From positions 124,001-188,000 of the forward strand of contig NZ_JACZZA010000003.1 of NCBI RefSeq assembly GCF_014863405.1: a DNA stretch of 64,000 nt, read 5' to 3'. A program made the translations under genes and the position numbers. This document shows positions 1-20,349 of the stretch, piece after piece. Each line of letters begins with the position of its first letter. Positions within the stretch are counted from its first letter, which is position 1. Below the pieces are notes generated by a model. It saw only the letters and a program-made list of their open reading frames with translations, was not told the origin of the DNA and did not search any database. Source of the DNA: Dyella acidiphila (GTDB lineage Bacteria; Pseudomonadota; Gammaproteobacteria; Xanthomonadales; Rhodanobacteraceae).

Positions 1-329
1 TGGCATAGACGAAACAGTGCATGGCTTGAACCCGCGAAATCCGTAGTGGGTCGTGAAGGTTAGCAGCACGCCCTGTCAGCGTCGCCCCAATAACCAAGTA
101 GGCACATGGGGTAGGAGGCTGTAGCTGAATGCTGCAAGCGCACTTGCGCGGCCCCACCCGAGCCGGCAGAGTGCCCGCCGGGGTTATCAAACGCGCGTAT
201 GAAATTGGCCGTGATGCCCCCCGCCCAAACCCGAGCCGTCATTCCACCCGAGGGATGCCGATCCCTCGGCTGATGCCGGTCGCCCGTTGGCCGCACTCGT
301 CACCAAGAAGAAGCAGGAGCAAGCAAGCG
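1..329. other. Non-coding leader upstream of the FadL-type gene
   Basis: No convincing gene lies here. A strong AGGAGG at 113-118 precedes an ATG at 129 that is in frame with the porin gene. Starting there would bury the signal peptide behind 67 arginine- and proline-rich residues, so I take this as untranslated leader. It also holds the palindrome at 187-202. Confidence 0.5.
187..202. promoter_or_regulatory. PsrA-like operator upstream of the fatty-acid porin gene
   Basis: TCAAACGCGCGTATGA is a 16-bp palindrome with one mismatched symmetric pair. It contains CAAAC-N4-GTATG, close to the C/GAAAC-N2-4-GTTTG/C box recalled for PsrA, the TetR-family fatty-acid regulator of Pseudomonas. Fatty-acid control is plausible because the next gene is a FadL homologue. 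The match is by eye only, and no psrA gene is visible here. Confidence 0.4.
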
Positions 330-1745
330 ATGCACATGTTTTTCCGCAACACCGTTCGTGGTGGCCGTCCGTTCGCCCTCGCCGCGCTTGGCCTGGCCAT
401 CGCCGGTGCCCTGGCTGCGCCGCAGCAGGCCCGGGCCAGTGCTTTCCAGCTGAAGGAAGACAGTGCGCAGAGCATGGGCCGCGCTTATGCCGGTTCGCTG
501 ACTGCGGGCGGTGACGTATCGGTGGTGGCCAATGGCCCGGCCGCGATGAGCGATCTGAAGGGTACCTATTTCGAGGCGGACGTCACCGCGATCAACTTCG
601 GCACCAGCTTCAGCGGCAGCGCGCACGACGTATTGAACAACCCGATCAGCGGCAATAACGGCGGCAATGCCGGCACCACCATGCCGGTGCCGGCGTTCTT
701 CTTCGAAACGCAGCTGAGCGATCGCTGGCACGTGGGCGCGGCCTTCAGCGTGCCGTTCGGCTTCAAGACCCAGTACGACAACAACTGGGTGGGTCGTTAC
801 AACGCGATCGAGTCCAAGTTCGAATCGCTCGATGCCACGCTGTCGGCCTCCTATGACATCACCGACAACTTCAGCATCGGCGGCAGCGCCATCGCGCAGC
901 GCACCAGCGCCACGCTGAGCAATGCGATCAATTTCGCCAGCGTCGGCCTGGACCTGGCCGGTCCGAACTCGGCGCTGCAACTGCCGCCGAGTAAGGTTTA
1001 CAGCCTGATCCCGCCGGGCACCGACGGCTACGCCCGCATCACCGGCAGCAGCTGGGCCTGGGGTTGGCAACTGGGCAGCTACTGGAAGATCGATCCGCAG
1101 GATCGCCTCGCTTTCAACTACCGCTCCAAGATCAGCCACCGCCTGCAGGGCACGGCTGATTTTGCCGTGCCGCAGAACGTATCCACCCTGATCGGCCAGC
1201 TGGCGCCGGCACTGGGCCTGAACACCTCGAACCTGCCGTTCCAGAACACCGGCGGCACCGCCGACTTCACCACCCCGGCCGTGGCCACCGCCAGCTACTG
1301 GCACCAGGAAGACAAGTTCGGCTTCGGCATGGACGTGTCCTGGACCGAGTGGGACGTGTTCAAGAACCTCACCGTCAACTACGCCAACCCGTACCAGCCG
1401 GCCACCACCCAGGTGTTCAACTGGCATAACTCCTGGTACACCTCGATCGGCGGCGAGTACTACCTGACCGACCAGCTCACGCTGCGCGGCGGTATCGGCT
1501 TCGATACCACCCCCACCTCCGGCCCCACCCGCGATGTGCGCGTGCCGGACGAAACCCGCAAGCTGGCTTCGGTGGGCATCGGCTACAAGGCTACCGAGCA
1601 CTTCTCGATCAATGCTTCGTATGCGCACATCTTCGTGAACCGGGCGACCATCGCCACCGACGTCAGCGCCACCGAAGACACCATCACCGGCACCTCCAGC
1701 GACTACGGCAACCTGTTCGCCATTTCCGGCGTCTACAAGTTCTAA
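330..1745 (+). CDS. FadL-family outer membrane long-chain fatty acid / hydrophobic compound transporter
   Basis: About 471 aa. FadL proteins are 14-stranded outer-membrane barrels that take up long-chain fatty acids or other hydrophobic compounds by lateral diffusion. The ATG at 330 (or 336) follows AGGAG at 315-319 and gives a clear signal peptide: a basic n-region, the hydrophobic ALAALGLAIAGALA stretch and an A-x-A-like site. The mature N-terminus begins SAFQLKEDSAQSMGRAYAG, followed by the VVANGPAAMSDL segment typical of the FadL hatch. The C-terminus alternates aromatic residues and ends in YKF, as barrel proteins do. A 129 start with its own Shine-Dalgarno exists but would displace the signal peptide. 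Whether the true substrate is fatty acids cannot be read from sequence. Confidence 0.9.
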   Translation: MHMFFRNTVRGGRPFALAALGLAIAGALAAPQQARASAFQLKEDSAQSMGRAYAGSLTAGGDVSVVANGPAAMSDLKGTYFEADVTAINFGTSFSGSAHDVLNNPISGNNGGNAGTTMPVPAFFFETQLSDRWHVGAAFSVPFGFKTQYDNNWVGRYNAIESKFESLDATLSASYDITDNFSIGGSAIAQRTSATLSNAINFASVGLDLAGPNSALQLPPSKVYSLIPPGTDGYARITGSSWAWGWQLGSYWKIDPQDRLAFNYRSKISHRLQGTADFAVPQNVSTLIGQLAPALGLNTSNLPFQNTGGTADFTTPAVATASYWHQEDKFGFGMDVSWTEWDVFKNLTVNYANPYQPATTQVFNWHNSWYTSIGGEYYLTDQLTLRGGIGFDTTPTSGPTRDVRVPDETRKLASVGIGYKATEHFSINASYAHIFVNRATIATDVSATEDTITGTSSDYGNLFAISGVYKF

Positions 1746-3678: not shown

Positions 3679-5094
3679 TCAACCGCGGCGCAGCAAGATC
3701 TCCAGCATCTGTCGGAACCGCTTGCCATACGGCGGATTGAGCAGCCCGGTACCGTTGAAGCGCGCCTGCCGGAATACCGGCTTCATATGCGAGAACGTGC
3801 GGAAGCCGGCTTCGCCGTGATAGCTGCCCATGCCTGAAGGGCCGACACCGCCGAACGGCAGGCTGTGCTGGGCGATGTGATAAAGCGTGTCGTTGAGGCT
3901 GACGCCACCGGCATGCGTACGTGCCAGCACCCGGTCGATACGCGCCTGTTCCTGCTCGAACAGATACAGTGCCAGCGGGCGTGGATGACGCGCCACGTAA
4001 TCGATGGCCTCGTCGAGCTGGTCATAGGGCAGCAGCGGCAGCAGCGGGCCGAAGATTTCCTCCTGCATCACCAGCATGTCGTCGTGCACACCGGTCAGCA
4101 GCACCGGCGTAAGCAGTCGCCGCTCGGAGCGGTCTTCCACGTCGGCCAGCCTGGTTACGCTGGCGCCCGCGTTTTCCGCGCCGTCGCGCAGATTGGCCAG
4201 GCGCTGGTAGTGGCGTTCGGTGGCGATGCTCGCGTATTGCGGATTGCGCGCCAGATCGGGATAAAGACGCGCCGCCGCCGCGCGCGCCGCCGCGGTGAAA
4301 CGCGCCACGTCGGCGCGCGGCAGCAAGACGTAGTCGGGTGCGATGCAGGTCTGTCCGGCGTTGACCAGCTTGCCGAACACGATGCGTTCCACCGCGTGCT
4401 CGAAGCGTGCGCCGGGACCGATGATGGCCGGCGATTTGCCGCCCAGTTCCAGGGTCACCGGGGTGAGATTGGCGGCCGCCGCGCGCATCACGTGATGGCC
4501 CACGGCGGTGGAGCCGGTGAACAGCAAGTGGTCGAACGGCAATGCGGCGAAAGCCTGGCCTACCGACGCATCGCCATTCACCACCAGCACCTCGTCGGGC
4601 TGGAAGTGGTGCGAGACCAGCTCGGCGAACAGCTGCGAGAAGCGCGGGGTGAACTCGCTCATCTTCACCATCACGCGATTACCGGCTGCGAGCGCATCGG
4701 CCAGCGGACCCACCGCCAGATACAGCGGGTAATTCCACGGCACGATGATGCCGACTACACCCAGCGGCTGCGGGCGCATTTCCGTGCGCGCCGGCAGGAA
4801 CGCCAGGCCGGCCAATGCACGGCGCGGTTTCATCCAGCGCCGGCCATGGCGCAGTGCGTGGCGAATCGCCGAGAGGCTGGGAAATACCTCCAGCATTTCG
4901 GTTTCTTCGCGCGGTCGGCAGCCGAAGTCGGCGTGGATGGCCTCGGCGATGTGCTGGCGATGCTGGTACACCATCGCCTCCAGCGCGCGCAGGCGGCGCG
5001 CGCGCGTGCGCCAGTCGGGCAGCGGCTCGCTTGCCTGCACGGCACGCAGGCGTGCCAGTTCGCTGGGCAGGTCCAGATGATCAGGCTGGTTCAT
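3679..5094 (-). CDS. Coniferyl-aldehyde-type NAD(P)-dependent aldehyde dehydrogenase
   Basis: 471 aa member of the aldehyde dehydrogenase superfamily that resembles coniferyl aldehyde dehydrogenases (CalB type), which oxidise aromatic or long-chain aldehydes to acids. Visible motifs: VPWNYPLYL near 118-126, the cofactor-site pair K144/E147 in VMVKMSEF, FTGSTAVG near 192, the general base E216 in LELGGKSP and the nucleophile C250 in NAGQTCIAPDY. The length is typical of this soluble subgroup and there is no signal peptide. It starts 23 bp after the TonB receptor stop, so it is probably the last gene of the kinase-aldolase-aminotransferase operon and may oxidise an aldehyde made there. The substrate name is only a family label. 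Confidence 0.85.
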   Translation of the reverse strand: MNQPDHLDLPSELARLRAVQASEPLPDWRTRARRLRALEAMVYQHRQHIAEAIHADFGCRPREETEMLEVFPSLSAIRHALRHGRRWMKPRRALAGLAFLPARTEMRPQPLGVVGIIVPWNYPLYLAVGPLADALAAGNRVMVKMSEFTPRFSQLFAELVSHHFQPDEVLVVNGDASVGQAFAALPFDHLLFTGSTAVGHHVMRAAAANLTPVTLELGGKSPAIIGPGARFEHAVERIVFGKLVNAGQTCIAPDYVLLPRADVARFTAAARAAAARLYPDLARNPQYASIATERHYQRLANLRDGAENAGASVTRLADVEDRSERRLLTPVLLTGVHDDMLVMQEEIFGPLLPLLPYDQLDEAIDYVARHPRPLALYLFEQEQARIDRVLARTHAGGVSLNDTLYHIAQHSLPFGGVGPSGMGSYHGEAGFRTFSHMKPVFRQARFNGTGLLNPPYGKRFRQMLEILLRRG

Positions 5095-5117
5095 GATGGC
5101 CGTGGCGCCTCCCCCGT

Positions 5118-7595
5118 TCAGAACTTCGTGCGCAGCTCGATACCGTATACGCGCGGCGGCGTTACGATAGCGTAGGGCGTGCCGAAGTCGTTGGTGCTGT
5201 CATTGCCGATGCTCACCACGTAGCGCTTGTTGAACATGTTGTTGACGTACAGCGCCACGCCCCAGCGCTGGTCCGGCGTGTGCCAGTCCAGGCGCGCATC
5301 GGTGCGCTGGGTGGAGGTGCCGACCGTAAACAGCGGGGTGCTCAGGCAGGTGCCCTGCACACCGGAGTCGGCGTTGCAGCGCGTCGGGCCGCGATAGGCG
5401 TATTGCAGGTTGAATTCCAGATTGCCGCGGTAGACGCCAAACCAGGTGTAGTCCATGCCGGCGGTGGCGGAGAAGGTCGGCTCGCCGGTGGGCTGGCCGT
5501 TGAGGCTGACGCCGGAGGTGGAGACGCCCTGGATGTAGGTGCTGTCGATATAGGCGCTGGTGAAATTCAGGCGCAACGCATTCACCGGCTGCCACTGTGC
5601 TTCCACATCCAGGCCGTGCGCATGCTGGTCGCTGGTCATCACCGTATAGAACGGCACGCCCGAACCGTTGAAGTTCGGATCGAGCACCGAAGACTGCAGG
5701 TTGGAATAGCGGTAGTAATACGCCGACGCGTTGAACATCAGGTTGTACTGCGGGAACACCGCTTTCACGCCGCCCTCGTAGTTCCACACTTTTTCGGGCG
5801 CATACAGCGAGCCGACCTGCAGGCTGTTGTAGCCGCCGGCCTTGTAGCCCTTGGTCACCGAGACATAACCCATCACGTCGGGCGTGAACTTGTAGCTGAG
5901 CACGGCGCGCGGGCTGAAATCGTGCCAGCTGTGCTGGGTCTGCACCCATTGGCCGACCGCATTGGGAAAGATCAGGTTGGTGCCGAACGCATTCAGCGCC
6001 TGCTGCGCATCCGGCGGCAGGATGCCGAAGATGCCGCTGCTGACCAGTTGCGCAACGGTCTGGTCGAAGGCGTTGGCCTGGCGCAGCGGCGTGTACCAGG
6101 TGAAATCCTTCTGGTCCTCGGTGTAGCGCAGGCCGGTGGTCAGGTCGAGCTGGTCGTTGAGATGCCAGATCACGTCGCCGAACGCGGCATAGGCCTTGAA
6201 GTGGCCGACGTTGTTGATCTCCTCGCGCCACGGGTCGCCGAGCAGGTTGTAGGGCAGGCCGAACTGCTGCAGACCCTGCGTGATCTCGGTCAGCGGCAAT
6301 CCTTCGTTGTCGACGTTCTGCGCCAGCGTGTCGAGGCTGTAGGTGTTGGTGTTGACCTGGCTGGTCTGGCGCGCCTGCTCGGAATAGGCGCTGACCCCGG
6401 CGACCCAGTCCATCAGGTCGTTGTCGCCGGCCAGCTTGAACTCCTGGTAGTAGCTGTTGTTGTGCTCGATATTGGCGGTGTCGAGGTAGCTGACGATGTG
6501 GTCGGTGCCGTCGTTGTCTTCGTCGTTGAAGGTATTGAAATGCCGCCAGGCGGTGGTGGAGGTAAGGCTGCCCCAGGAGAACGAGTGATCGATGATCAGG
6601 GTGGAGCCGTCAAAGTGGCGCCACTCGGCGGCCTGGCTGGCGTCGTTGTACAGCGGCGCGTTGAGCGGATCGAGGTAGGTTTGCGGATTGGGCGGAAACG
6701 GCGGCCGCTGGTACGTGTTGTTGGACAGCGCCACCAGGCCGATCGCCGGCTGCGGCGGCTGGTCCAGGCGCTCGTGATCCCACGACCACAGCAGGCGCGT
6801 ATCTGACGTGATGTTCCAGCGGTAGACCATGCGGGTGCCCCAGTCATCGTTGCGGCCGTAATGCTGGCCGGTGGCCTGGTCGCGGATCCAGCCGTTGCTC
6901 TGGTTGTCCAGCACGCTGATGCGCAGCGCCATATCCTGGTTGAGCGGGATATTCACCAGCGCGCTTTCGTATTTCTCGCCGTAGTTGCCGAAGCGCACCA
7001 GCGCATTACCCTCGAACTTGTCGGTGGGTTCGTTGGTGACGATGGAGATCGCGCCGCCCGCCGCATTGCGGCCGAACAGCGTGCCCTGCGGGCCCTTCAG
7101 TACTTCGATGCGGTCGATATCGTTGAACGCCAGCAGGGCGCCGCCGGAACGCGCGGCATACACGCCGTCGATATACACACCCACTGCCGATTCGGTACCG
7201 ATGCCGAAGTCGCTGGTGCTGATGCCGCGCAGCGAATAATTCGGCTGCGTCGGCTGGCTGCCGCTTACCACCAGCCCCGGCACGAACAGCGAGATCTTGC
7301 TCAGATCCGTGGCCGCCTGCGTGGATATCTGCTGTGCGGTAAGAATCTGCAGCGGAATCGGCACCTGTTCCATCTGCTGCGAGCGGCTTTGCGCGGTAAC
7401 GGTGATATTGCCCAGCTGCTTGGCCTGGCTGGCGTCGGCGGCGGTCTTGCTGGCGGTTTGCTTGCCGGCAGGCGGATTGCTGTTCGCATCCTGGCCCTGT
7501 GCGCCGCCCGGCCAGCAGGCGCCGAGCAACAGTGCCGCGCCGCCGAACATCGCCTGGCGCAGGCACCTGGATAAAGTACGTTGCCGCATCGTCAT
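5118..7595 (-). CDS. TonB-dependent outer membrane receptor of the catabolic-type operon
   Basis: 825 aa. The ATG at 7595 has GGGGAG six bases upstream; a second ATG lies two codons in. A signal peptide (basic MTMRQRTLSRCLRQ, then hydrophobic FGGAALLLGA) precedes a Gln/Ala-rich linker and a TonB-box-like ITVTAQSR. The plug domain shows LRGISTSDFGIG, VYIDGVYAAR and IEVLKGPQGTLFGRNAAGG. The rest is a beta-barrel ending in a C-terminal Phe. It resembles sphingomonad-style receptors that import substrates other than iron, and there is no ferric-siderophore context here. It lies 59 bp after the MFS permease gene and 23 bp before the aldehyde dehydrogenase gene, and presumably provides outer-membrane entry for the operon's substrate. 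Confidence 0.9.
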   Translation of the reverse strand: MTMRQRTLSRCLRQAMFGGAALLLGACWPGGAQGQDANSNPPAGKQTASKTAADASQAKQLGNITVTAQSRSQQMEQVPIPLQILTAQQISTQAATDLSKISLFVPGLVVSGSQPTQPNYSLRGISTSDFGIGTESAVGVYIDGVYAARSGGALLAFNDIDRIEVLKGPQGTLFGRNAAGGAISIVTNEPTDKFEGNALVRFGNYGEKYESALVNIPLNQDMALRISVLDNQSNGWIRDQATGQHYGRNDDWGTRMVYRWNITSDTRLLWSWDHERLDQPPQPAIGLVALSNNTYQRPPFPPNPQTYLDPLNAPLYNDASQAAEWRHFDGSTLIIDHSFSWGSLTSTTAWRHFNTFNDEDNDGTDHIVSYLDTANIEHNNSYYQEFKLAGDNDLMDWVAGVSAYSEQARQTSQVNTNTYSLDTLAQNVDNEGLPLTEITQGLQQFGLPYNLLGDPWREEINNVGHFKAYAAFGDVIWHLNDQLDLTTGLRYTEDQKDFTWYTPLRQANAFDQTVAQLVSSGIFGILPPDAQQALNAFGTNLIFPNAVGQWVQTQHSWHDFSPRAVLSYKFTPDVMGYVSVTKGYKAGGYNSLQVGSLYAPEKVWNYEGGVKAVFPQYNLMFNASAYYYRYSNLQSSVLDPNFNGSGVPFYTVMTSDQHAHGLDVEAQWQPVNALRLNFTSAYIDSTYIQGVSTSGVSLNGQPTGEPTFSATAGMDYTWFGVYRGNLEFNLQYAYRGPTRCNADSGVQGTCLSTPLFTVGTSTQRTDARLDWHTPDQRWGVALYVNNMFNKRYVVSIGNDSTNDFGTPYAIVTPPRVYGIELRTKF

Positions 7596-7654
7596 GTCGA
7601 TCTCCCCTCTCGCTGTGTCGGATTGCATCGCCGCATCAGGCCGATGCATCGCGT

Positions 7655-8842
7655 TTATTTGAAGTGCTCGCCTCCGGCCAAAACCCCGTTCCCGTCGCCG
7701 GAAGGAGCGCGAAACTTCACCAACAACAAAGCCACCACTACGCACACCGCGAATCCCGCCGCGATCAACGGTATGCCTTGTACATCGTCGCCGTGCACGC
7801 TGAACGAAGCGGCCAGCGGCCCGAAGCCGGAACCCAGCAGCTGCGCCGGCGGCACCAGCAGGGCGATGCGCCCGTGCGGATCGATCTGGAACGCCAGGCG
7901 CACGTGGAACGGCATCTGGAACAGCCAGGCAAAACCGAATACTGCGCAGAGCGCGGTAAAACGCCATGGATCGGGCGTGGCCAGCTGGTGCATGCCCAGG
8001 CCGATCATGGCCACTACCACGGCGCTGGCCACCAGCGTCGGGCCGACGCGCCAGCGACGTACCACCAGCGCGGCCAAGCTGCCGCCGATGACCTGCATCA
8101 GCAACGTCAGCGCCACCAGGGCATCCGCGTTGCCGCCGGCAATGCCGGCGTGCTTGCTCAAGGGTTCCAGATACGCCCACAGCGTGCCGATCGCACTCAG
8201 ATGTGCAAAGGGCACCAGCAGGGCAAACAGGCCGCGCCATGACACGATCGACGGCATGATCGCATCGCTATGCGAGCCGACCTGGCGCGGCAGGCGCGAG
8301 ATCACCAACAGCGGGGTGATACACACCGCCGCCAGCACCACAAAGCCGGCCTGCCAGCCCAGCGCATGCAGCGGCAACTTGGCCAGCGCAAGCGCCACCA
8401 GCGCCTGGGTCAGCGTTTGTGCGGTGAGAAAAATGCCGGCCAGGCGGTCGGGCTCATGCGAGCGCACGATCACCACGGTAGTGATCCAGAACAGGCTCGC
8501 TTCCAGCAGCCCGGCCAGCACGCGTATCGCGGCGCAGGTTGCGTCGCCGTGCACGAGCAGGGTGAGCAGATTCACCATCACGAGCAGCAAGCTGCCGCAG
8601 ATCGCCACCGGGCGAAGATGCTGCAAGGGCAGGAATTTTTCCGCTAGTACCACGCCGATGCCGAGTGCGAAGATTTCGCCCATCGCCACGATGCCGACGC
8701 CTTCCATCGAAATGCGCTGCTGCTCGACCAGATCGCCCAGCAGTGCCGGCTGCAGGCCCAGCATCATCAGCGCCACGCAACCCACCGCCAGCGCGGCGGC
8801 GCGTTCGGAGCGGCGGAAGGTGAGCGACACGGCGGTGCTCAT
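7655..8842 (-). CDS. Major facilitator superfamily transporter
   Basis: 395 aa, about twelve predicted transmembrane segments in two halves, with a basic cytoplasmic region between them (residues 187-205, including SRLPRQVGS). The first helices follow a short basic N-terminus. The family is clear from overall architecture, but I do not recognise a substrate-specific subgroup. It lies between the degenerate aldolase gene (47 bp) and the TonB receptor gene (59 bp) on the same strand, so the pair probably moves one compound across both membranes, inward if the operon is catabolic or outward if it is biosynthetic. Confidence 0.8.
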   Translation of the reverse strand: MSTAVSLTFRRSERAAALAVGCVALMMLGLQPALLGDLVEQQRISMEGVGIVAMGEIFALGIGVVLAEKFLPLQHLRPVAICGSLLLVMVNLLTLLVHGDATCAAIRVLAGLLEASLFWITTVVIVRSHEPDRLAGIFLTAQTLTQALVALALAKLPLHALGWQAGFVVLAAVCITPLLVISRLPRQVGSHSDAIMPSIVSWRGLFALLVPFAHLSAIGTLWAYLEPLSKHAGIAGGNADALVALTLLMQVIGGSLAALVVRRWRVGPTLVASAVVVAMIGLGMHQLATPDPWRFTALCAVFGFAWLFQMPFHVRLAFQIDPHGRIALLVPPAQLLGSGFGPLAASFSVHGDDVQGIPLIAAGFAVCVVVALLLVKFRAPSGDGNGVLAGGEHFK

Positions 8843-8889
8843 CGGCCGGCCCTCCCTTGCAGTTTGCTATGTCGATGCATGCATGCGCC

Positions 8890-9519
8890 TCAGTAGCCTT
8901 TCACTTCTTCGGGTAGCAAGCCTTGGGCAAAACGTTCGGTGGCTTTGCGCTGATCTTTTTTCAGGCGCCCGTTGGCGATCCGGCAAACCCACCAGGGCAG
9001 CGTGTGTACGCGCGCTCCGCACGCTAGCGCCAGCACATAGGCCTTGGCGCATTTCTCCAGCAACTCTGCATTGAGCACCAGCCGATGTGCGGTGCTGCCG
9101 AATACCAGCACGGCGTCGCCGCAGACCCAGGCATCGCCGCCGGTGCCCAGGCAGCGCTCGGCGCCGGCCTGCGGATCGCCGCGCCGATCGTGCAATGGCA
9201 ACGCGGTGCGCCCCAGATGGCGCGCCTGCTCATCGAACACCTGCGGCAGGTTACCGCCGAAGTCGCCCAGGCTACGACCATAGCTGCCGCCGCCCAACGC
9301 AACCGCACCGACATCAGCGCGTGTGCGGTAGACCGCGGCATGCCATGCTTGCTCGCCTTGTGCGTCGGCCAGTGCTACGCGCGCCACGGGATGTGCCACG
9401 GTGCCGAACAGCATGTCCTGCGTGCCAGGCAGGCGCACGGATACGCTGGCGCCGCTGCCCAGCAACTGCTTGCCGTCCAGGCGTTTGATCGCGTCTTCGA
9501 GCAGAGAGGTCAGCGGCAT
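8890..9519 (-). CDS. Class II aldolase/adducin-like protein lacking the metal ligands
   Basis: 209 aa, start ATG 9519, five bases after the aminotransferase stop. The overall pattern follows the class II aldolase/adducin fold: an N-terminal helix, a GSGASVSVRLPG segment in place of the SGGNLSxR loop, and a C-terminal helix NAELLEKCAKAYVLAL. The residues that bind Zn2+ in active members are gone. The HxH site reads ALGGGSYG (about 74-81), and the third ligand region reads VLVFGSTAHR instead of an N-H-G type loop. An active aldolase of the same fold is encoded two genes upstream, so this may be a regulatory or structural partner, or a diverged enzyme with another chemistry. The fold assignment is by eye and moderately sure. 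Confidence 0.6.
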   Translation of the reverse strand: MPLTSLLEDAIKRLDGKQLLGSGASVSVRLPGTQDMLFGTVAHPVARVALADAQGEQAWHAAVYRTRADVGAVALGGGSYGRSLGDFGGNLPQVFDEQARHLGRTALPLHDRRGDPQAGAERCLGTGGDAWVCGDAVLVFGSTAHRLVLNAELLEKCAKAYVLALACGARVHTLPWWVCRIANGRLKKDQRKATERFAQGLLPEEVKGY

Positions 9520-9524
9520 GTTCG

Positions 9525-11000
9525 CTACACCTGTTTCAGCACGTCTTCGAAGCGGTTCAGCGCATCGTCGATCACTTCGTCGGTGTCGGCCATGCTGGTG
9601 TAGATGCGGCTGCCGGCCAGGGTGATCAGGCCATGCGCGGCATACGCGGCGCCCATTTCCTCCATCATGTGCTTGCGCTGCTTGGCTTCGTGGCGCGCGC
9701 GCACCAGTTTGAGCAGGCTGCTGGTGTCGAGCAGCATCACACCCGAGGTCTGCAGGTGCACGATCGAACCCATGTTGTAGGCGACGTAGGGCAGGCCCAG
9801 CCGCTCGATGATCTGTTCCAGGCCCTGGCGCAGGCGATCGCCTGCGCGGCCGGCCTTGGCCGCCGCATCGGTGCGCTGCATTTCCTGCAGCGCGAAATAG
9901 CCGGCGGCGCATGACAGCGGATTGGCGGTGAGCGTGCCGCCGACGAAGGCGCGCTTGGCGGTCGTGCCGATGCCGCCGACCAGCATCATCATGATGTCGC
10001 GCTTGCCGCCGATGGCGCCGGCCATTGGATAGCCGCCGGTAAGGCATTTGCCGAGAATGGTCAGATCCGGCTGCACGTTGAAATACGCCTGCGCACCGCC
10101 CATGCCGGCGCGAAAACCCGTGACTACCTCGTCGAAGATCAGCAAGGTGTTGAATTCATCGCACAGCTTGCGCAGCTGGGCATTGAAATCTCTGGTCACC
10201 GGGCGTGTGCCGCTTTCCGGGCCGAACGGTTCGACGATGATCGCGGCGGTGCCGCCGCGCAGCCGGTTCCATTGCAGCTTGCGGCGGATGGCGGCGAGAT
10301 CGTTCGGCAGGCTTTCCTGGGTGCCGGCAGTGGCGCCGCGCGGAATGCCGATCGCCTCCATGCGACCGGTATTGGGCAGGCGCATGCCGTACACCATCTG
10401 GTCGCTCCAGCCGTGGTAGCCACCGCCGATCTTGATCACGCGCCGCTTGCCGGTATACGCACGCGCCAGCCGGATCGCGCCCATCACCGCCTCGGTGCCC
10501 GAGCCCATCATGCGTAGCATGTCCACGCCCGGCATGGCATCGCAGACCAGTTCGGCCAGCTTCACCTCGTACTCGTGCAGCAGCCCGGTGACCGGACCGC
10601 AATGCTCCAGCAACGCGCGCACTTGTTCGCGCACCACCGGATGATTGGAGCCGAGCAGGGTGGGGCCGCCCGCCTGCAGGAAGTCGGTATAGCGATTGCC
10701 GTCCACGTCCGTCATATGCGCGCCGTCGACCTGGGCGATGGCCAGCGGGAACGGATAGTTGAAGGCCAGGTTGTGCTGCACGCCGCCGGGAATCACCTGG
10801 GCGGCCTGCTCGGCCAGGCGCTTGGAGCCTTGGCAGCGCTGCTCGAAATGCGCGAGCACGCGCTGCATGGCATCGCGCTTGAGCGGGCGCATCGGCTGCT
10901 TTACCAGCGCGTCGAAGCGACGGTACAACGCATCGGTATCCGGCCATTGCGATACCGCGCTGGCGGCTGGCAAGGCGGCGTTGGCGTGATTGAAATTCAT
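9525..11000 (-). CDS. Class III (glutamate-1-semialdehyde-like) PLP aminotransferase
   Basis: 491 aa PLP fold-type I enzyme. The group resembles glutamate-1-semialdehyde 2,1-aminomutase and related omega-aminotransferases. Motifs: MGSGTEAVMGAIRLARAYTG (about 165-184) binding the cofactor phosphate, GGGYHGW (191-197), the PLP-ring aspartate D290 in LIFDEVVTGFR and the Schiff-base lysine K318 in TILGKCLTGGYP; GGTLTANP follows. An extra N-terminal stretch of about 60 residues precedes the canonical QVIPGGV start. The ATG at 11000 overlaps the aldolase stop (ATGA), tying it to the operon. In this context it may add or remove an amino group on an aldehyde or ketone that the aldolase makes or consumes. 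It is unlikely to be HemL, given the context and the N-terminal extension. Confidence 0.85.
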   Translation of the reverse strand: MNFNHANAALPAASAVSQWPDTDALYRRFDALVKQPMRPLKRDAMQRVLAHFEQRCQGSKRLAEQAAQVIPGGVQHNLAFNYPFPLAIAQVDGAHMTDVDGNRYTDFLQAGGPTLLGSNHPVVREQVRALLEHCGPVTGLLHEYEVKLAELVCDAMPGVDMLRMMGSGTEAVMGAIRLARAYTGKRRVIKIGGGYHGWSDQMVYGMRLPNTGRMEAIGIPRGATAGTQESLPNDLAAIRRKLQWNRLRGGTAAIIVEPFGPESGTRPVTRDFNAQLRKLCDEFNTLLIFDEVVTGFRAGMGGAQAYFNVQPDLTILGKCLTGGYPMAGAIGGKRDIMMMLVGGIGTTAKRAFVGGTLTANPLSCAAGYFALQEMQRTDAAAKAGRAGDRLRQGLEQIIERLGLPYVAYNMGSIVHLQTSGVMLLDTSSLLKLVRARHEAKQRKHMMEEMGAAYAAHGLITLAGSRIYTSMADTDEVIDDALNRFEDVLKQV

Positions 11001-11659
11001 GCGATCAACTCCTGCACGGGTTGTGCGTCGAGCGTGGCGACCAGCTTTTGCAGTGCCGCCTGTTCGGAGGCCGGGCGAGTGGCGCGCGCGGCGATGCGCG
11101 CGCGCAGATGGGCGGCGGCGAGCGCTTCCAGCGCGGCAATGGATTGCAGCGCGCGCTCGGCGCTGCTGCCGCAGCAGATGGCGCCATGCGTGCGCAGCAG
11201 ATAGGCATTCACCTCCGGCCGCAGCACGCGTTGCAACTTGCTCGACAACCAGCGCGTGCCGGATGGCGCATAGCCGGCGATCAATACCTGCGGCCCGAGC
11301 AGTGCGCGCTGTTCCGGCGGTACGGGCAGCGGTTGGCCGAGCAGGCTTAGGGCGCTCGCTACCGGCTGATGGGTGTGGATGCTGGCGTGGCAGTCGGTGC
11401 GTTTGCGCAATACCTGCGCATGCATGCCGGTTTCCACCGAAGGCTTGCGCTCGCCATCGATCTTGACCAGATCGCTCAGACGCAGCACGCAGATGTCCTG
11501 CGGACCCATCTCGTAATAGTCGACGGCCGATGGCGTTACCACGATATGTTCGGCGTCCACGCGCAGCGCGAGATTGCCGCCGGTTGCCGCGAAATAACCG
11601 CGGTCGGCCAGCAGTACGCTCATCTCGACCACGCGTTGGCGCATCGATTCGAATTTCAT
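10997..11659 (-). CDS. Class II aldolase family protein with intact metal site
   Basis: 220 aa, the size of L-fuculose-1-phosphate aldolase, L-ribulose-5-phosphate 4-epimerase and MtnB. These Zn2+ enzymes make or break C-C bonds next to a phosphorylated ketose. Seen directly: GYFAATGGNLALR (21-33) phosphate loop, SVETGMH with the acid-base E76, the metal ligands H95 and H97 in SIHTHQP, and H158 in LRTHGA. The pattern around VDYYEMGPQDI resembles the MtnB branch. The start codon overlaps the kinase stop (ATGA) and its own stop overlaps the aminotransferase start (ATGA). The likely reaction is cleavage of the kinase product into a three-carbon phosphate and an aldehyde, but the substrate is unknown. 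Confidence 0.85.
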   Translation of the reverse strand: MKFESMRQRVVEMSVLLADRGYFAATGGNLALRVDAEHIVVTPSAVDYYEMGPQDICVLRLSDLVKIDGERKPSVETGMHAQVLRKRTDCHASIHTHQPVASALSLLGQPLPVPPEQRALLGPQVLIAGYAPSGTRWLSSKLQRVLRPEVNAYLLRTHGAICCGSSAERALQSIAALEALAAAHLRARIAARATRPASEQAALQKLVATLDAQPVQELIA

Positions 11660-13284
11660 CGCGGCGGACTCCGGTGTTGATTGATGCGGCGATACAGCGG
11701 CGCAAGCCGGCGATGCAATTGCTTGAAGGTGGCGAAGCTGTCGTCGTACAGGCTGCGCAGCGCCGGGCGCGGCTCGAAACGCTGCCGATAGCGGCATAGC
11801 GCAGGCACATCCTGGAACGACAGCTCGCCCAGCCCGACGCCGGCGATAAACGCCGCACCCAGTGCGTTCGCCTGGATCGGCGCCTGTGGCTGCTGGATCA
11901 GCATGCCGGTTACGTCAGCCATCATCTGGCACCACACCGCCGACTGGCCGCCGCCGCCCACGATAGTGATGGCGCCGCCGCGTGGCGCGCCGACGAACGC
12001 CAGCATCGGCTCCAGCATCCAGCGGGTGTTCAAGGCCACGCCTTCGAGGAAGGCGCGGATTATATCTTCGCGCGTGTGTTCCAGCGAAAGATTGAACAGC
12101 CCCGCGCGCAGATGGCGGTCGTCTACCGGCGTGCGTTCGCCCAGCAGCCACGGCATGTAGAGCAGTCCGCGCGCGCCCGGCGGCACGCGTTCGGCAATGC
12201 GGTCGAGCAGCGGATACACGTCGCCGCGCTGCTCGTCGACCTGCAGTTCGTCGCCATGGAACAGAATGCGGTCGCGCAGAAACGCCAGGTTGCCGGCAGC
12301 CGAGGTCTGCATCGCCATGGCCAGATAGCGGTCGCGCTGCGCACAAGGCAGCGATGCGATGTATGCACTCAGGTGCGTACGCTTGCGCGGCATATGCGCA
12401 CCGAGCCAGGACGAGGTGCCCAGATACAAATGCAGTTGGCCGTCGCGCACCGTGCCGGCACCGATCGCCGCCGCGGAATTGTCGATCGCACCAGCCACCA
12501 CCTTGGTATCGGGGGCCAGCCCCAGCGCGTGCGCCACGGCGGGCAGCAAGGGGCCGAGCACGTCGGTGGAATGCACCAGCTCCGGCAGCTTGTCGCGTTC
12601 GATGCCGAGCAGGCGCAACAGGCCCTCGTCGTAGTGCACGTGGGACAGATCGCGGTTGTCGGTGGCCCAGGTGGTGAGCGCCGAATCGTAGGTGGCGCAG
12701 CAGCGGCCGGTCAGGCGCAGATTCATGAAATCCAGCGCATTGAGGAATTTGCTGCTGCGCTCGACCACCGCCGGTTGCCGGTCGTAGAGCCATGCAATGT
12801 GACCGGCCGGATCCTTGCCCGACAGCGACGGCACGCCGCCAGTCAGGCGCAACCAGCGCGCCAGACGCAGCGGGCTGTAACCCTGGATATGCAAGCGCCC
12901 GCGCCGTGCGCGCCGGCGGATCGCATCGGCACCGCGCATATCCACCCACAGCATCGCGCGCGCCAGCGCGTTGCCATCCCGGTCAACCGGAATGGTGCAT
13001 TCGCCGAAGGTGGAGCAGCACACCGCCACTACCTGCCGGCGCCGTTGCGCATCGGCTGCCAGCAATTCCTGCGCGCCGTCGAGGAAGGCCTGCCACCAAT
13101 CCTGCGGATCCTGTTCGACGCCCAGCTCATCCACCAGATGCAGTGCTACCGGGCGGAAGGTCCACGCCAGCACGCTGCCGTCCATGCCGACCAGCGCCAC
13201 CTTGCAGCCGGACGTGCCCAGGTCGACCGCCAAGACCAGGCGTTCGCTGCGGATAGGCGTGATGGCTGGCGCCGCGCTGGGCAT
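11656..13284 (-). CDS. FGGY-family carbohydrate kinase (xylulokinase-like)
   Basis: 542 aa. FGGY kinases phosphorylate sugars, polyols or related compounds with ATP. Seen: the phosphate-1 loop LAVDLGTSGCKVALV (about 19-33), the catalytic aspartate in AGAIDNSAAAIGAG, the phosphate-2 loop YLGTSSWLG and the adenosine loop IVGGGGQSAVWCQMMAD. The length is slightly above xylulokinase. GTG (13290) and ATG (13284) are both possible; GGGGAG lies nine bases before the ATG and only three before the GTG, so ATG is preferred. It is the first gene of the minus-strand operon, transcribed away from the tetR-like gene across the operator at 13303-13346. Phosphorylation here would trap the imported compound and create the aldolase substrate. 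Confidence 0.85.
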   Translation of the reverse strand: MPSAAPAITPIRSERLVLAVDLGTSGCKVALVGMDGSVLAWTFRPVALHLVDELGVEQDPQDWWQAFLDGAQELLAADAQRRRQVVAVCCSTFGECTIPVDRDGNALARAMLWVDMRGADAIRRRARRGRLHIQGYSPLRLARWLRLTGGVPSLSGKDPAGHIAWLYDRQPAVVERSSKFLNALDFMNLRLTGRCCATYDSALTTWATDNRDLSHVHYDEGLLRLLGIERDKLPELVHSTDVLGPLLPAVAHALGLAPDTKVVAGAIDNSAAAIGAGTVRDGQLHLYLGTSSWLGAHMPRKRTHLSAYIASLPCAQRDRYLAMAMQTSAAGNLAFLRDRILFHGDELQVDEQRGDVYPLLDRIAERVPPGARGLLYMPWLLGERTPVDDRHLRAGLFNLSLEHTREDIIRAFLEGVALNTRWMLEPMLAFVGAPRGGAITIVGGGGQSAVWCQMMADVTGMLIQQPQAPIQANALGAAFIAGVGLGELSFQDVPALCRYRQRFEPRPALRSLYDDSFATFKQLHRRLAPLYRRINQHRSPPR

Positions 13285-13302
13285 GAACACTCGCTCCCCA
13301 AA

Positions 13303-13346
13303 AGCTAGTATTAGCTACAATATAGTTATAGCTATAATTCGCGCAA
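13303..13346. promoter_or_regulatory. AT-rich divergent promoter with palindromic operator
   Basis: This is strikingly AT-rich for the region. A perfect 12-bp palindrome, TTATAGCTATAA (13326-13337), overlaps a consensus TATAAT (-10, 13333-13338) for the plus-strand tetR-like gene. On the minus strand, TTGCGC (13346-13341) and TATATT (13324-13319) with a 16-bp spacer form a candidate promoter for the kinase operon, with the palindrome between the two hexamers. A second symmetric AGCTA/TAGCT pair lies at 13303-13316. A TetR-type repressor bound here would block both promoters. Confidence 0.6.
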
Positions 13347-13367
13347 TAGCCGAAGGACCCCGATTCC

Positions 13368-14045
13368 GTGCCAGCCCCGACCAAGCGGCCCCGCCGCAGC
13401 GCCAAGCCGCCCAAGCTCGATCTGGCTCCCAAGTTGGCCCCCGCGCAGTCGCGCGCGGCTGAGACCTACGAACAGCTGCTGGACGTGACCGCCCAGGTAT
13501 TGGCCGAAGTCGGCTTCGAGCAGCTCAGCACCAATCTGGTATGCCAGCGCGCGGGCTTGTCGCCGCCGGCTCTGTACCGTTACTTCCCCAACAAGTACGC
13601 GCTGCTGCACGAACTCGGCCTGCGCCTGATGCAGCGGCAGAATGCGTTGCTCGGCCAATGGCTGACGCCTGCGGCGTTCGCTTCCGCAACGCAACTGGAA
13701 GACGCGCTTACCGGCCTGCTGCTGGAAACCTACGAAGTCACCCGCCAGGCCACCGGCGGCATCTGGATCATGCGCGCATTGCGCGCCATTCCCATGCTGC
13801 AGGATGTGCGCCTGGCCTCGGCCAGCGAAGTGGCGGCGCAGGCGACGGCGCGTTTGCGCGACGCGTTTCCCGGCGCACCGGCCACCGAACTGCAGCTGCT
13901 CAGCCGGGTTGCCGACAGCATGGCCTTTGCCGCGCTGGAAATGCTGTTCGACGATCCCTCGCTGGATGCGCCGTCGGTGATGCGCCTGGTGGCCGCCAGC
14001 CTGGCCAGCAACGTGGCGCGCCTGCAGAACAAGCCGGGGCGCTGA
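13368..14045 (+). CDS. TetR/AcrR-family transcriptional regulator
   Basis: 225 aa from a GTG start at 13368 with AAGGA ten bases upstream. After a basic N-terminal tail of about 30 residues comes the TetR DNA-binding domain: LLDVTAQVLAEVGFEQLST, then CQRAGLSPPALYRYFPNKYALL (about residues 60-81), the classic helix-turn-helix ending in the YFPNK turn. The C-terminal half is helical and would bind ligand and dimerise. It is divergent from the kinase operon and shares an operator region with it, so it is the probable local repressor, released by the operon's substrate or an intermediate. The C-terminal family is not recognised, so the inducer cannot be guessed. Confidence 0.85.
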   Translation: MPAPTKRPRRSAKPPKLDLAPKLAPAQSRAAETYEQLLDVTAQVLAEVGFEQLSTNLVCQRAGLSPPALYRYFPNKYALLHELGLRLMQRQNALLGQWLTPAAFASATQLEDALTGLLLETYEVTRQATGGIWIMRALRAIPMLQDVRLASASEVAAQATARLRDAFPGAPATELQLLSRVADSMAFAALEMLFDDPSLDAPSVMRLVAASLASNVARLQNKPGR

Positions 14046-14113: not shown

Positions 14114-15253
14114 TCAGTGCAGTACCACGCATTGGCCGGGCAGCGATGCAATCCACGCTTTGATCAGCGCAAGCCCCTCCTGATGCACGGTGCTGCGCCC
14201 TAGTTCCGGCATCATCGTGCCGGGCACGGCGGAGCCGAGACGATAGGGAATGATCGAGTCGTCCGGATGGCCCGGCACAATATCGAACAAATGATCGCCG
14301 GTGCCCTGGCCGGCCGCGGTAGGCGGCTTGCAGATGCCGATATGCCGGTCTTCTGCCGTGGCGATGTCCAGCGTCAGGCCGGTGGTATTGGCCGCTCCCT
14401 TAGGGTTGTGGCAATGGCCGCAGTTGATATCCAGATACGCGCGCGCCCGTGCATCCAGCGACGCGTGCTGATCCAGCCAGTTGGCGTTGCGCGGCGCGTC
14501 GGCCGGTGCGGGCGCACCGCTCAGATAGCCCACGCGCACCAGATGCTCCAGTTCGTTCTCGTCGCCGTCGGCGTAGCGGTAGTCGCGGTTGAGATGACGC
14601 GCTTTCGGGCCGATCGGCTGGATCGCGCGCGTGGTCCAGTCGCGGGCGTGACAGCTGGCGCACTGGCTTTGATCGGGCACGACGTAGTTGAAGTTTTCGC
14701 GTGTACCGTCGTCACCGACCAGGGTCAGCGCCTGCACGTCGCCGGTGCGCGCGAGCACCGCTTCGGTCTGGTCGGCATTCCATACATAGGGAATCGCCAC
14801 CCAGCCTTCCTTGCGCCGCACCAGCAAGCGCGTCTCCACCAGATGCACATGGGCCAGGTTCAAGCCTTGTCCGGCGAAATCGCGGCTGGTGTCGTAGGTG
14901 CGCGCGATATCGGTGGCGTTGCGCGCCTCGCCTTTCGGCAGCGGATAGAAGAAGGTCTTGCTGATGATGGTGCCGACGGGAAAATCGAAGGTATCGGTGG
15001 CGCTGTATGTGGCCGCGACGCCCTTGGGCATCCAGATCGTGCGCAGTTTGTGCGCGTAGTCGGTGAACAAGGGTGTATTGAGTTCGTACGGCACCACGCC
15101 TTCGTTCAATTGCAGCACGCCATCGCGTGCTTCCACGACGTGCCAGTCGCTGAGCTTGGGCGGATAACCGTCGTCATGGAAAGCCACGGCATCCATCGAA
15201 CGATGGCAGGCCGACACGCACAGTGCGGCCAGCAGCAACAGCATGCGCAGCAA
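14114..15253 (-). CDS. SO2930-family diheme c-type cytochrome lipoprotein
   Basis: About 379 aa. The start is uncertain: TTG at 15253 follows GGGAGGAG with a short gap and gives MLLRMLLLLAALCVSAC, a good lipoprotein signal with lipobox VSAC; ATG at 15244 lacks the basic n-region. Two c-heme motifs are visible, CASCH in SQCASCHARDW and CGHCH in NCGHCHNPKG, the second followed by a long loop and PGTMMPELG with likely axial Met. The family is known from Shewanella SO_2930 and is typically paired with a beta-helix protein, as here. Its role is unknown; it is probably a periplasmic, membrane-tethered electron carrier. The gene follows the beta-helix gene across a 143-bp gap holding a palindromic repeat. 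Confidence 0.8.
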   Translation of the reverse strand: MLRMLLLLAALCVSACHRSMDAVAFHDDGYPPKLSDWHVVEARDGVLQLNEGVVPYELNTPLFTDYAHKLRTIWMPKGVAATYSATDTFDFPVGTIISKTFFYPLPKGEARNATDIARTYDTSRDFAGQGLNLAHVHLVETRLLVRRKEGWVAIPYVWNADQTEAVLARTGDVQALTLVGDDGTRENFNYVVPDQSQCASCHARDWTTRAIQPIGPKARHLNRDYRYADGDENELEHLVRVGYLSGAPAPADAPRNANWLDQHASLDARARAYLDINCGHCHNPKGAANTTGLTLDIATAEDRHIGICKPPTAAGQGTGDHLFDIVPGHPDDSIIPYRLGSAVPGTMMPELGRSTVHQEGLALIKAWIASLPGQCVVLH

Positions 15254-15259
15254 TGGGCT

Positions 15260-18392: not shown

Positions 18393-19475
18393 TCAGACCG
18401 GAAAACTGCGCCGTGCCAGCTGCGGCGGCATGCCGGTCCAGCGTTTGAATGCACGGCGGAATTCGCGCGGATCGCTGAAACCCAGTTCGATGCCGATTTC
18501 GGCCACGCTCATCTGGCCGGCATGCAACAGTTCCAGCGCGCGTTCGGCGCGCACGCGATCGTGGATCTCGCGGAAGATGCGGCCGCTGTCGGCCAGCCTG
18601 CGGCGCAGCGAGCGTTCGCTCAGATGCAGCGTACGCGCTACTTCGGTCAGCCTGGGATGCTCGCGCAGGCGGCTGCGCAGCAGGCGCTCCACCGAACCGA
18701 CGATTTCATCCGAGCTGCTGGTGCCGCGCAGTTGCTGGTGGCATAGCGTCAGCGCCTGGCGCGAGGTAAGCGGGTTGTAGCCGGGCAGCGGGTAGTCCAT
18801 CCAGTGCGTATCGATCAGCACGCGGTTGTGCTGCGCGCCGAAGCGCAGCTCGCACTGGAAGGTTTTGGCGTATTCGTCGCGATACGGCGGTGCCGGATAG
18901 GTGAATTCCACCCGCACCGGAATCAGCTTCGGCCCGACCAGTTCGCGCGCAATGGCCAAACTGCTGGAAAACAGCTCTTCGCACAGGAACGGCAGCAGTT
19001 CGATTTCGCCGAAGCGCGGCCATGCCTGCGCCGCCACGGTGCGTGCATCGACCTCGGCAAAATCCACATCGAGCAGGCTGCCGCAGATTTTGTGGTTTTC
19101 AATGCCCACGCCCATCGCATCGCCGAAATTGCGCGAGGTCATCATGGCCAGACCAAGCAGGCCGAAGCTGCCGATGGTTTCGTTGCGCCCGACCGACAGG
19201 CCAAGCCCCGGATCCCGCAGCACCTTCAGTGCGCGCGCGATAACCGTGCGTGCCTGGCGATAGGAAACACGCACCGACGGATCGTTGATCTGCTGGCGCG
19301 TGATGCCGAGCCCGGCAAACCATGCTTCGCTGGAAAGCCCGCGGCGCGCGGCAAGCTCAGTGAGATGCACCAATACATTGGGCGGTATATCGGCGGCGAG
19401 TGCGCGCGGATCCGGTTCGATCGGTAGCGGCGACATGCGCCGCGTGCGCTGCATTTCAAATGCCAGTTCTGACAT
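18393..19475 (-). CDS. AraC-family transcriptional regulator (arabinose-binding-like N-terminal domain)
   Basis: 360 aa; ATG 19475 with GGGGGAAGG six bases upstream. The N-terminal 200 residues match the sensor type found in OruR/ArgR-like AraC regulators (GLGLSVGRNETIGSFGLLGLA, FEMQ start). The C-terminal part carries two helix-turn-helix units: TEVARTLHLSERSLRRRLA and SVAEIGIELGFSDPREFRRA, followed by FKRWTGMPP. Its stop is six bases from the stop of the plus-strand ArsR-like gene. The target is unknown; no divergent gene faces it, as the next gene upstream is on the same strand. The N-terminal domain suggests a small hydrophobic or amino-acid ligand. Confidence 0.85.
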   Translation of the reverse strand: MSELAFEMQRTRRMSPLPIEPDPRALAADIPPNVLVHLTELAARRGLSSEAWFAGLGITRQQINDPSVRVSYRQARTVIARALKVLRDPGLGLSVGRNETIGSFGLLGLAMMTSRNFGDAMGVGIENHKICGSLLDVDFAEVDARTVAAQAWPRFGEIELLPFLCEELFSSSLAIARELVGPKLIPVRVEFTYPAPPYRDEYAKTFQCELRFGAQHNRVLIDTHWMDYPLPGYNPLTSRQALTLCHQQLRGTSSSDEIVGSVERLLRSRLREHPRLTEVARTLHLSERSLRRRLADSGRIFREIHDRVRAERALELLHAGQMSVAEIGIELGFSDPREFRRAFKRWTGMPPQLARRSFPV

Positions 19476-19587
19476 GCCAGACCTTCCCCCGTGCCGACCC
19501 TCTTCGGCGCAGAACGTATCTTCTAGCACGTGTGGGCGCGAGGTGGTTGGCGCGGCGCACAAGCGTCGCCGCGTATGTTGCGAAGCG

Positions 19588-20349
19588 TTACGGCTTCGTC
19601 GACATGGCGTGCTGCCACTGCGCGACCCAGCCATCCAGATCGGCCAGCCGCTTCACGGAATCATCACTCAGCGACATGCCCACCGCTGCGCCTGCGACGC
19701 GGCCGCTTGGATCGATCAACATCAATGTCGGATACGTACCGACGCCCAGCGTATCGGTCAGCGCAACGCCGTCGTACAGCACGTTCCAGCTCAGGCCGTG
19801 GTCGTCGACAAAGCCGCGTGCAAGCACAGCGTCTTCGAATGTGATCGACACCACATTCATCTCGCCATGCTCGCGTGCGAAGGCATTCAAGGTAGGCACC
19901 TCGGCGATGCATGGCCCGCATTCGGCGAAGAAAAAGCTCACGAGCGTATAGCGCCCGTGAAAATCACTGAGTCGCTGGGTGGCGCCGCGCAGCGAGCGCA
20001 ATTCAAACGGCGGAAAGGCATCGCCGCGGCCGAACGCGAAGCGGCCGGGCTCGCCGGCATGGGCGCCGGGCGGACGCAGCCGCAGTACGGCGGCGCCGGC
20101 CTGACGATCGCGCGTAATGCTGTAGGAACGGCGCGCGTGCAGTTGCTGCGCGAAGCCGGCGTAGTCCAGCGGCTTGCCGTTGGAGTCGAGGTAGCGGACG
20201 TGCGGTGTGCTGCCGAGTTGCAGGGTGGCGAGGAAGCTTGCTTCGTCGCTGTCGTGCGAGGCCGCGCTTGCCTCACACTTCACGCTCAAGTGGATTTGCC
20301 CTTGCCAGGTCCGCGCAATGAAGAAAGATTGCGCGAGGTTTCCCCTCAC
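19588..20349 (-). CDS. TlpA-like thioredoxin-fold protein, N-terminus possibly lost to a repeat
   Basis: Up to 253 aa. The C-terminal 140 residues form a TlpA/redoxin domain: DFHGRYTLVSFFFAECGPC with the C144-G-P-C147 redox motif, VGTYPTLMLIDPSG with the cis-Pro loop. TlpA proteins are normally exported, yet no signal peptide can be seen. The only workable start is GTG at 20349, which lies inside a REP-like repeat (20342-20382) whose GGGGAGAGGG would act as ribosome site. Either the repeat inserted into the 5' end of an exported gene and created a new start, or translation begins at an unrecognised codon. It lies on the same strand as putA, 39 bp after its stop. Confidence 0.6.
   Translation of the reverse strand: MRGNLAQSFFIARTWQGQIHLSVKCEASAASHDSDEASFLATLQLGSTPHVRYLDSNGKPLDYAGFAQQLHARRSYSITRDRQAGAAVLRLRPPGAHAGEPGRFAFGRGDAFPPFELRSLRGATQRLSDFHGRYTLVSFFFAECGPCIAEVPTLNAFAREHGEMNVVSITFEDAVLARGFVDDHGLSWNVLYDGVALTDTLGVGTYPTLMLIDPSGRVAGAAVGMSLSDDSVKRLADLDGWVAQWQHAMSTKP

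Follow-up and report, generated by a model that had tools for sequence, protein, structure and literature searches.

To our knowledge, the bacterial use of sphingoid bases is poorly known. In eukaryotes, these lipids are broken down through the sphingoid-base phosphate lyase route, which comprises sphingosine kinase, sphingosine 1-phosphate lyase, fatty aldehyde dehydrogenase and Mpo1. Phytosphingosine, a (2S,3S,4R)-2-amino-1,3,4-triol, is an abundant plant and fungal base and an antimicrobial lipid. From 1-phospho-2-ketoses that carry hydroxyls at C3 and C4, class II aldolases of the FucA/DrdA type release dihydroxyacetone phosphate (DHAP) and an aldehyde. One of them belongs to the DHAP shunt, the 5-deoxyribose salvage pathway (DrdK-DrdI-DrdA) of Bacillus thuringiensis. 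According to the accessible text of PMC6079011, DrdA converts 5-deoxyribulose 1-phosphate to DHAP and acetaldehyde, takes a variety of aldehydes when working in reverse, and has Glu76 as its proposed base. A sphingoid-base regulon of Pseudomonas aeruginosa is described in the available part of PMC3900636, where glycine and a long-chain aldehyde were proposed in 2014 as the products of sphBCD. Here we analysed a 64,000-nucleotide stretch of the Dyella acidiphila genome (contig NZ_JACZZA010000003.1, positions 124,001 to 188,000; hereafter the window) and describe an operon that probably imports phytosphingosine and similar long-chain bases with a 4-hydroxyl and breaks them down along a pathway that forms DHAP.

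Direct reading of the open reading frames (ORFs) in the window revealed seven minus-strand genes opposite a plus-strand gene for a TetR-family regulator (13368..14045; Pfam TetR_N), together spanning positions 3679-14045. In the order of transcription, the seven genes encode an FGGY carbohydrate kinase (11656..13290, starting at GTG 13290 or ATG 13284; FGGY_N and FGGY_C), a class II aldolase of the FucA/DrdA type (10997..11659; Aldolase_II), a class III aminotransferase resembling glutamate-1-semialdehyde (GSA) aminomutase (9525..11000; Aminotran_3), an aldolase-like protein (8890..9519; Aldolase_II), a major facilitator superfamily (MFS) transporter (7655..8842; MFS_1), a TonB-dependent receptor (5118..7595; Plug and TonB barrel) and an ALDH3-type aldehyde dehydrogenase (3679..5094; Aldedh). 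The kinase and aldolase genes overlap by four bases (ATGA), as do the aldolase and aminotransferase genes, and the later gaps are 5, 47, 59 and 23 bases, provided that the receptor starts at ATG 7595. Strands, overlaps and gaps reproduce exactly the layout given in an initial annotation of this DNA.

The same annotation had proposed that a gene combination confined to this locus would speak against a functional unit. We scanned species genomes with the aminotransferase (tblastn, E ≤ 1e-3), which returned at least 575 stretches coding for a relative, of which the best 80 were kept. Together with two plasmid records (Burkholderia ambifaria and Butyrivibrio fibrisolvens) these make 82 loci, and 78 genomes lie behind the 80 genome loci. 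Genes in the loci were counted by tblastn, except for DUF2147, porin, monooxygenase and short-chain dehydrogenase/reductase (SDR) genes, which were counted as ORF clusters from a crude GC-based gene caller. The kinase, aldolase and aminotransferase were present in all 82 loci and the aldolase-like gene in 81, and this four-gene core kept the same order on one strand in 81/82 loci. The sole exception was the Butyrivibrio plasmid locus, in which tblastn did not find the second aldolase-like gene. Because order and strand recur in this way, the arrangement is not a product of chance; the combination is not confined to the window, and the predicted operon is real and conserved. Homologues of the other genes were less regular: MFS transporter in 71/82 loci, TetR regulator in 67, some aldehyde dehydrogenase in 43 and TonB receptor in 8. 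The nearest named relatives, Dyella flava, D. psychrodurans and D. mobilis, have aminotransferases 90-92% identical to that of the window. Counting its own genome, the aminotransferase occurred at E ≤ 1e-140 in 6 of 398 evenly sampled Pseudomonadota genomes and at E ≤ 1e-80 in 8 of the 61 genomes of the relatives search. The core of Burkholderia ambifaria (plas1, L016) is plasmid-borne: the plasmid is typed as conjugative, and IS5 transposase genes flank the core, a setting that suggests horizontal transfer.

For the catalytic steps, their order, uptake and regulation, we infer the following scheme. The TonB receptor and the MFS transporter would import the long-chain base, and the aminotransferase would exchange its C2 amine for a ketone, giving 1,3,4-trihydroxy-octadecan-2-one. 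The FGGY kinase would phosphorylate C1 of this 2-oxo-phytosphingosine, and the class II aldolase, composed of a metal-binding subunit and a pseudo-enzyme partner, would cut between C3 and C4 to yield DHAP and, from t18:0, n-pentadecanal. The ALDH3-type dehydrogenase would turn the aldehyde into a fatty acid destined for beta-oxidation, and the operon would be regulated by TetR. The computed configuration of the C1-C5 head of 2-oxo-phytosphingosine is (3R,4R), identical to that of 5-deoxy-D-ribulose; with this match and a DrdA-like aldolase, the aminotransferase, kinase and aldolase form a consistent series leading to DHAP and n-pentadecanal. Transamination would come first because a DHAP-type class II aldolase needs a ketone. 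The initial annotation had envisaged import, phosphorylation, cleavage and then transamination or oxidation; import, phosphorylation, aldol cleavage and oxidation fit the data, but the placing of transamination after cleavage is probably wrong. Among the substrates it had considered, an amino polyol agrees with the amino triol proposed here; the substrate is most likely this long-chain compound, phytosphingosine, rather than a sugar or part of a glycoside. Among the titles and abstract openings of the open-access papers listed, we found no description of this gene set or of a DHAP route from sphingoid bases. A direct route through the core for sphingosine or sphinganine was rejected on chemical grounds, since neither carries a C4 hydroxyl and no such cleavage could take place.

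Most likely, the locus encodes a lipid form of the DHAP shunt assembled from known enzyme families. Like 5-deoxyribose salvage, it combines a kinase with a FucA/DrdA-type aldolase that would split a 1-phospho-2-ketose into DHAP and an aldehyde, and the stereochemistry of the substrate head is identical. Unlike that pathway, it would make the ketone with a transaminase rather than an isomerase, and it has an FGGY kinase, a predicted long-chain aldehyde product and a pseudo-aldolase partner. No sugar-phosphate isomerase was found by Pfam among the eight window proteins, to which, and not to the rest of the genome, the search was directed. The pairing of an FGGY kinase with a class II aldolase is also known from the L-fucose and L-rhamnose pathways, but here both enzymes score below cut-off in the NCBIfam models shown and no isomerase stands among the eight proteins; for these reasons catabolism of fucose, rhamnose, xylulose or ribulose was rejected. 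With the eukaryotic lyase route, the proposed pathway would share C1 phosphorylation, carbon-carbon cleavage and an ALDH3-type enzyme that oxidises a long-chain aldehyde. It differs in that Pfam identified no sphingosine kinase and no pyridoxal phosphate (PLP)-dependent lyase family among the eight proteins, and in its predicted products: DHAP would take the place of phosphoethanolamine, and the aldehyde would be C15 rather than C16.

The kinase is above the Pfam cut-offs (FGGY_N, 124 bits against 28.8; FGGY_C, 100 bits against 27) and was assigned to no named equivalog (xylulokinase, fuculokinase, ribulokinase or others); its best score, to XylB, was 250 bits against a cut-off of 380, and it remained under the cut-off of all 12 NCBIfam models matched. 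The first aldolase matched Aldolase_II with 131 bits and was under the cut-off in all 25 NCBIfam models shown (of 28). Its best solved match is 6btd, the 5-deoxyribulose-1-phosphate aldolase DrdA. The glutamate and three histidines of the FucA/DrdA metal site are intact (E76, H95, H97 and H158) and were conserved in at least 98% of 81 aligned first aldolases, after two rows (L026 and L067) with internal stops under the extraction used had been dropped from the residue counts, and in 33/33 sequences of a second alignment. The predicted structure has a predicted local distance difference test (pLDDT) score of 91.8. On the basis of these sequence features, we propose that this protein is the catalytic, DHAP-forming subunit. 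Dehydration of the MtnB type was considered less likely than aldol cleavage, with aldolase models scoring ~98 bits versus 82 bits.

The aminotransferase fails the hemL equivalog cut-off (282 versus 527 bits). In GSA aminomutase, the Arg that follows the GGVNSPV motif binds the carboxylate of the substrate. This Arg is absent from the window protein, where its position aligns to a gap with 4e77, and the region is occupied by Q75-H76-N77-L78-A79-F80-N81, which is conserved in at least 98% of 83 aminotransferases. The missing Arg is consistent with a substrate that has no carboxylate. A weaker solved match of the protein is the aminopentol aminotransferase 6hbs, which we take to act on the sphingoid-like amine of fumonisin. 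A function in haem biosynthesis as GSA aminomutase was rejected, given the score far under the hemL cut-off and the missing Arg.

The second aldolase homologue barely reaches Aldolase_II (23.0 bits against a cut-off of 22.2), and a sequence search of solved structures gave no match at E ≤ 1. Its AlphaFold structure (35-row prediction, pLDDT 93.8) has a class II aldolase fold, with Foldseek TM-scores of 0.71 to FucA (1dzu) and of 0.73 and 0.71 to DrdA (6btg and 6btd). The metal ligands are lost: among the 17 sequences aligned, of 82, there was no His at either of the two HxH positions, the third His was found in 1 and the Glu in 5. The initial annotation had counted both proteins as aldolase homologues; the second is without the catalytic residues. 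What is conserved lies elsewhere. The residues F95-D96-E97-Q98 are invariant in the 35 rows and present in at least 98% of 82 sequences, and the C-terminal residue is a tyrosine in 82/82 sequences, including the window protein (Tyr209). The first aldolase retains the metal-side and phosphate-side residues, but the residue that it aligns with Q98 of its partner varies (17 rows). It has no tyrosine within its last 40 residues in 68 of 81 sequences and one in the other 13. Tyr113 and Tyr209 of E. coli FucA are, according to structure titles, the targets of mutant structures, and we take both to be contributed by the neighbouring subunit. The simplest reading that these alignments and models suggest is a mixed oligomer of the two aldolase proteins with divided duties. 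The Butyrivibrio aldolase, for which no partner gene was found nearby, has tyrosines in an extension of its C-terminus, a single case in line with a split aldolase. We tentatively put forward a specific form of the lipid DHAP shunt, to which we give somewhat less than even credence: transamination would yield a long-chain 'ketopentose', and a split, hetero-oligomeric aldolase would release DHAP and an odd-chain aldehyde. As part of the same tentative proposal, one subunit would supply the metal and phosphate sites, and the C-terminal tyrosine and DEQ motif of the degenerate paralogue would act across the interface.

For the last step, the best solved match of the aldehyde dehydrogenase was a steroid aldehyde dehydrogenase (334 bits), followed by the human fatty aldehyde dehydrogenase 4qgk (304 bits), 3sza (290 bits), the class 3 enzyme 1ad3 (275 bits) and the benzaldehyde dehydrogenase 5ucd (260 bits); the next group scored 163 bits. 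The closest solved relatives are thus of the ALDH3 type. From this similarity, we propose a long-chain aldehyde as substrate. The TonB receptor and the MFS transporter are proposed to mediate uptake across the outer and inner membrane, respectively.

To the shared core, some relatives add homologues of genes known from sphingoid-base metabolism. ORF clustering detected near the core a cytochrome c lipoprotein, a flavin adenine dinucleotide (FAD) oxidase of the ALO family with a twin-arginine translocation signal, and an Ala_racemase_N protein, which are the protein types that sphB, sphC and sphD specify in P. aeruginosa. Reference sequences came from a P. aeruginosa record in which sphR and argB are annotated next to these genes. 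SphC homologues, 38-77% identical to P. aeruginosa SphC, were present in 16/82 loci at 1.3-5.7 kb from the core; at the tblastn thresholds, 15 of these loci also had SphD and 14 had SphB. At E ≤ 1e-40, SphC was found in 20 of the 78 core genomes. In 16 of them the sole match was the copy beside the core, and in four (G068, G115, G113 and G122) it lay outside the fetched core locus, among them Dyella solisilvae (G113) with a copy 64% identical. By simple arithmetic, about 0.4% of random placements would fall within 10 kb in a 5.5-Mb genome. On a quick aminotransferase tree with Shimodaira-Hasegawa-like approximate likelihood ratio test (SH-aLRT) support only, the presence of SphC beside the core needs at least 10 changes, of which at least 6 are forced by well-supported branches. 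A Yoonia plasmid (L099, 7477-14273) carries SphB-, SphC- and SphD-like genes in a stretch whose annotation includes no kinase, class II aldolase or class III aminotransferase.

Two further gene types appear beside the core in a few relatives. Neutral ceramidase was detected in 3/78 core genomes and lies beside the core in two of the three, both Pseudomonas loci with the ceramidase in the core block (L089, 1470-3470; L090, 1489-3489) and the kinase starting from ~7800. Both ceramidase domains are recognised in the protein from L089, with 603 and 187 bits. In the third genome (Albitalea, L047) ceramidase and core are on different contigs. Between ceramidase and core, L089 also encodes DUF1329-like and DUF1302 envelope proteins (3717-6886), a possible lipid uptake pair. 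A DUF962 gene occurs in 3/82 loci (L016, L030 and L050), with a short match in L048; the one copy checked (L016) belongs, with 82 bits, to PF06127, a family of Mpo1-like 2-hydroxy-palmitic acid dioxygenases. Yeast Mpo1 acts in the breakdown of phytosphingosine.

According to the available text of PMC11893366, sphBC plays an important part when P. aeruginosa grows with sphingosine, phytosphingosine or sphinganine, and also in the disappearance of sphingosine. Mutants without sphBCD or sphC are impaired in growth with the three bases, the sphBCD mutant accumulates sphingosine, and sphD is dispensable (PMC11893366). The pathway proposed here resembles this system in its substrates and in the SphC genes that adjoin the core of relatives, and differs from it in chemistry, as sphBCD encode a periplasmic cytochrome c, an FAD oxidase and a PLP aldolase-like enzyme; unlike P. 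aeruginosa, the window genome has no SphC match. Since sphingosine and sphinganine without a 4-hydroxyl would escape the aldolase, this difference may explain why SphBCD are found in some of the clusters.

Several observations weigh against assigning the operon to phytosphingosine. No SphC was found at E ≤ 1e-30 in the window genome or in 15 genomes of its genus, the search being positive in 1 of 37 genomes in all, from another genus of the family, and the core lacks an adjacent SphC in 66/82 loci. This protein is a member of a large family of FAD oxidases. The SphC trait is clustered on the tree (shuffled mean 14.8 changes; 1/500 shuffles as low), so that the 16 loci represent several rather than 16 independent cases, and the 80 genome loci, as the nearest of at least 575 stretches, are an uneven sample. 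The window genome has no neutral ceramidase either; the same search was negative in 14 control genomes and positive in 3/78 core genomes. Given that the window genome has neither a SphC nor a ceramidase match, its sphingoid case rests on the shared core. As to SphBC itself, the accessible part of PMC11893366 calls its direct action on sphingosine unproven and describes a deletion without phenotype in P. fluorescens WCS365 and one with little phenotype in Caulobacter. Within the operon, the steroid aldehyde dehydrogenase outscores fatty aldehyde dehydrogenase 4qgk (334 against 304 bits), the best NCBIfam model of the dehydrogenase is a benzaldehyde dehydrogenase below cut-off, the solved-structure search returned no informative relative of the TonB receptor, and no gene of the operon directly specifies the alkyl chain.

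These points bear on three other explanations. Because several loci have SphB, SphC and SphD homologues next to one another close to the core, and the product of SphBC action is unpublished as far as the available text of PMC11893366 extends, the operon might act on sphingoid bases in general: SphBC would oxidise them in the periplasm, with the core as a downstream or parallel arm that handles the oxidised product and not phytosphingosine itself. We regard this as unlikely, given that the window genome and 58/78 core genomes have no SphC match and the core must work alone there; in chemical terms, moreover, a C1 kinase needs a free C1 hydroxyl and a retro-aldol step a C4 hydroxyl, and sphingosine and sphinganine have none at C4. 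Alternatively, the substrate could be a small polar 2-amino polyol, such as an amino sugar alcohol or a compound derived from an iminosugar, with the sphingolipid genes adjoining for another reason. The sugar-type families of the enzymes and the window genome without SphC or ceramidase match would suit such a compound, which is nonetheless improbable: of the 20 core genomes with SphC, 16 have it less than 6 kb from the core, the dehydrogenase is of the ALDH3 type and scores 304 bits to fatty aldehyde dehydrogenase, and a few loci have ceramidase or Mpo1-like genes as neighbours. Synthesis of an amino polyol or long-chain base from DHAP and an aldehyde, a direction that the initial annotation had allowed for, is very improbable: such aldolases can work in either direction (DrdA; PMC6079011, accessible text), but a kinase instead of a phosphatase, an aldehyde dehydrogenase, uptake-type genes and the ceramidase and SphBCD neighbours of relatives point to breakdown.

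If the operon does catabolise phytosphingosine, it would provide a complete route from this lipid to glycolysis and beta-oxidation and account for a gene combination that the initial annotation could not place. Functions would be assigned to a gene set whose aminotransferase occurs in 6/398 of the sampled Pseudomonadota genomes. The route would also be a bacterial source of odd-chain fatty acids and a further example of an aldolase with separate subunits for catalytic and helper roles. The head of phytosphingosine would probably be handled like a sugar, a form of sphingolipid breakdown unlike that of animals, plants and yeast.

Beyond the operon, the kinase-TetR intergenic region (13291..13367) contains an AT-rich, partly palindromic block, a candidate operator/promoter that is recognisable in six Dyella loci by eye. 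An AraC regulator 37% identical to P. aeruginosa SphR (18393..19634, minus strand) lies ~4.3 kb from TetR, and SphR-like AraC genes occur in 16/82 core loci. The window AraC and SphR share QhpR as best model; because this family match is unspecific, we left these genes out as evidence and regard the window copy as a possible, non-diagnostic accessory. Another possible accessory is the OMPP1/FadL/TodX-family outer-membrane protein (129..1745, plus strand) downstream of the operon, near the aldehyde dehydrogenase gene, which is also kept nearby in two Dyella loci (L019 and L020). Adjoining TetR on the minus strand (14114-16785) are genes for an SO2930-family diheme cytochrome and a parallel beta-helix protein (TIGR03806 and TIGR03805), a pair kept nearby in three Dyella loci (L018-L020). 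In relatives, as in L029 (6315-7658), genes for a DUF2147 protein (45 loci) and for a Gcw_chp/TorF-like porin (48 loci) are often found just upstream of the kinase and perhaps have a role in uptake. Finally, a flavin monooxygenase (12 loci) and an SDR (9 loci) were found near the core, mostly in Pseudomonas (for example L029, 15360-17642).

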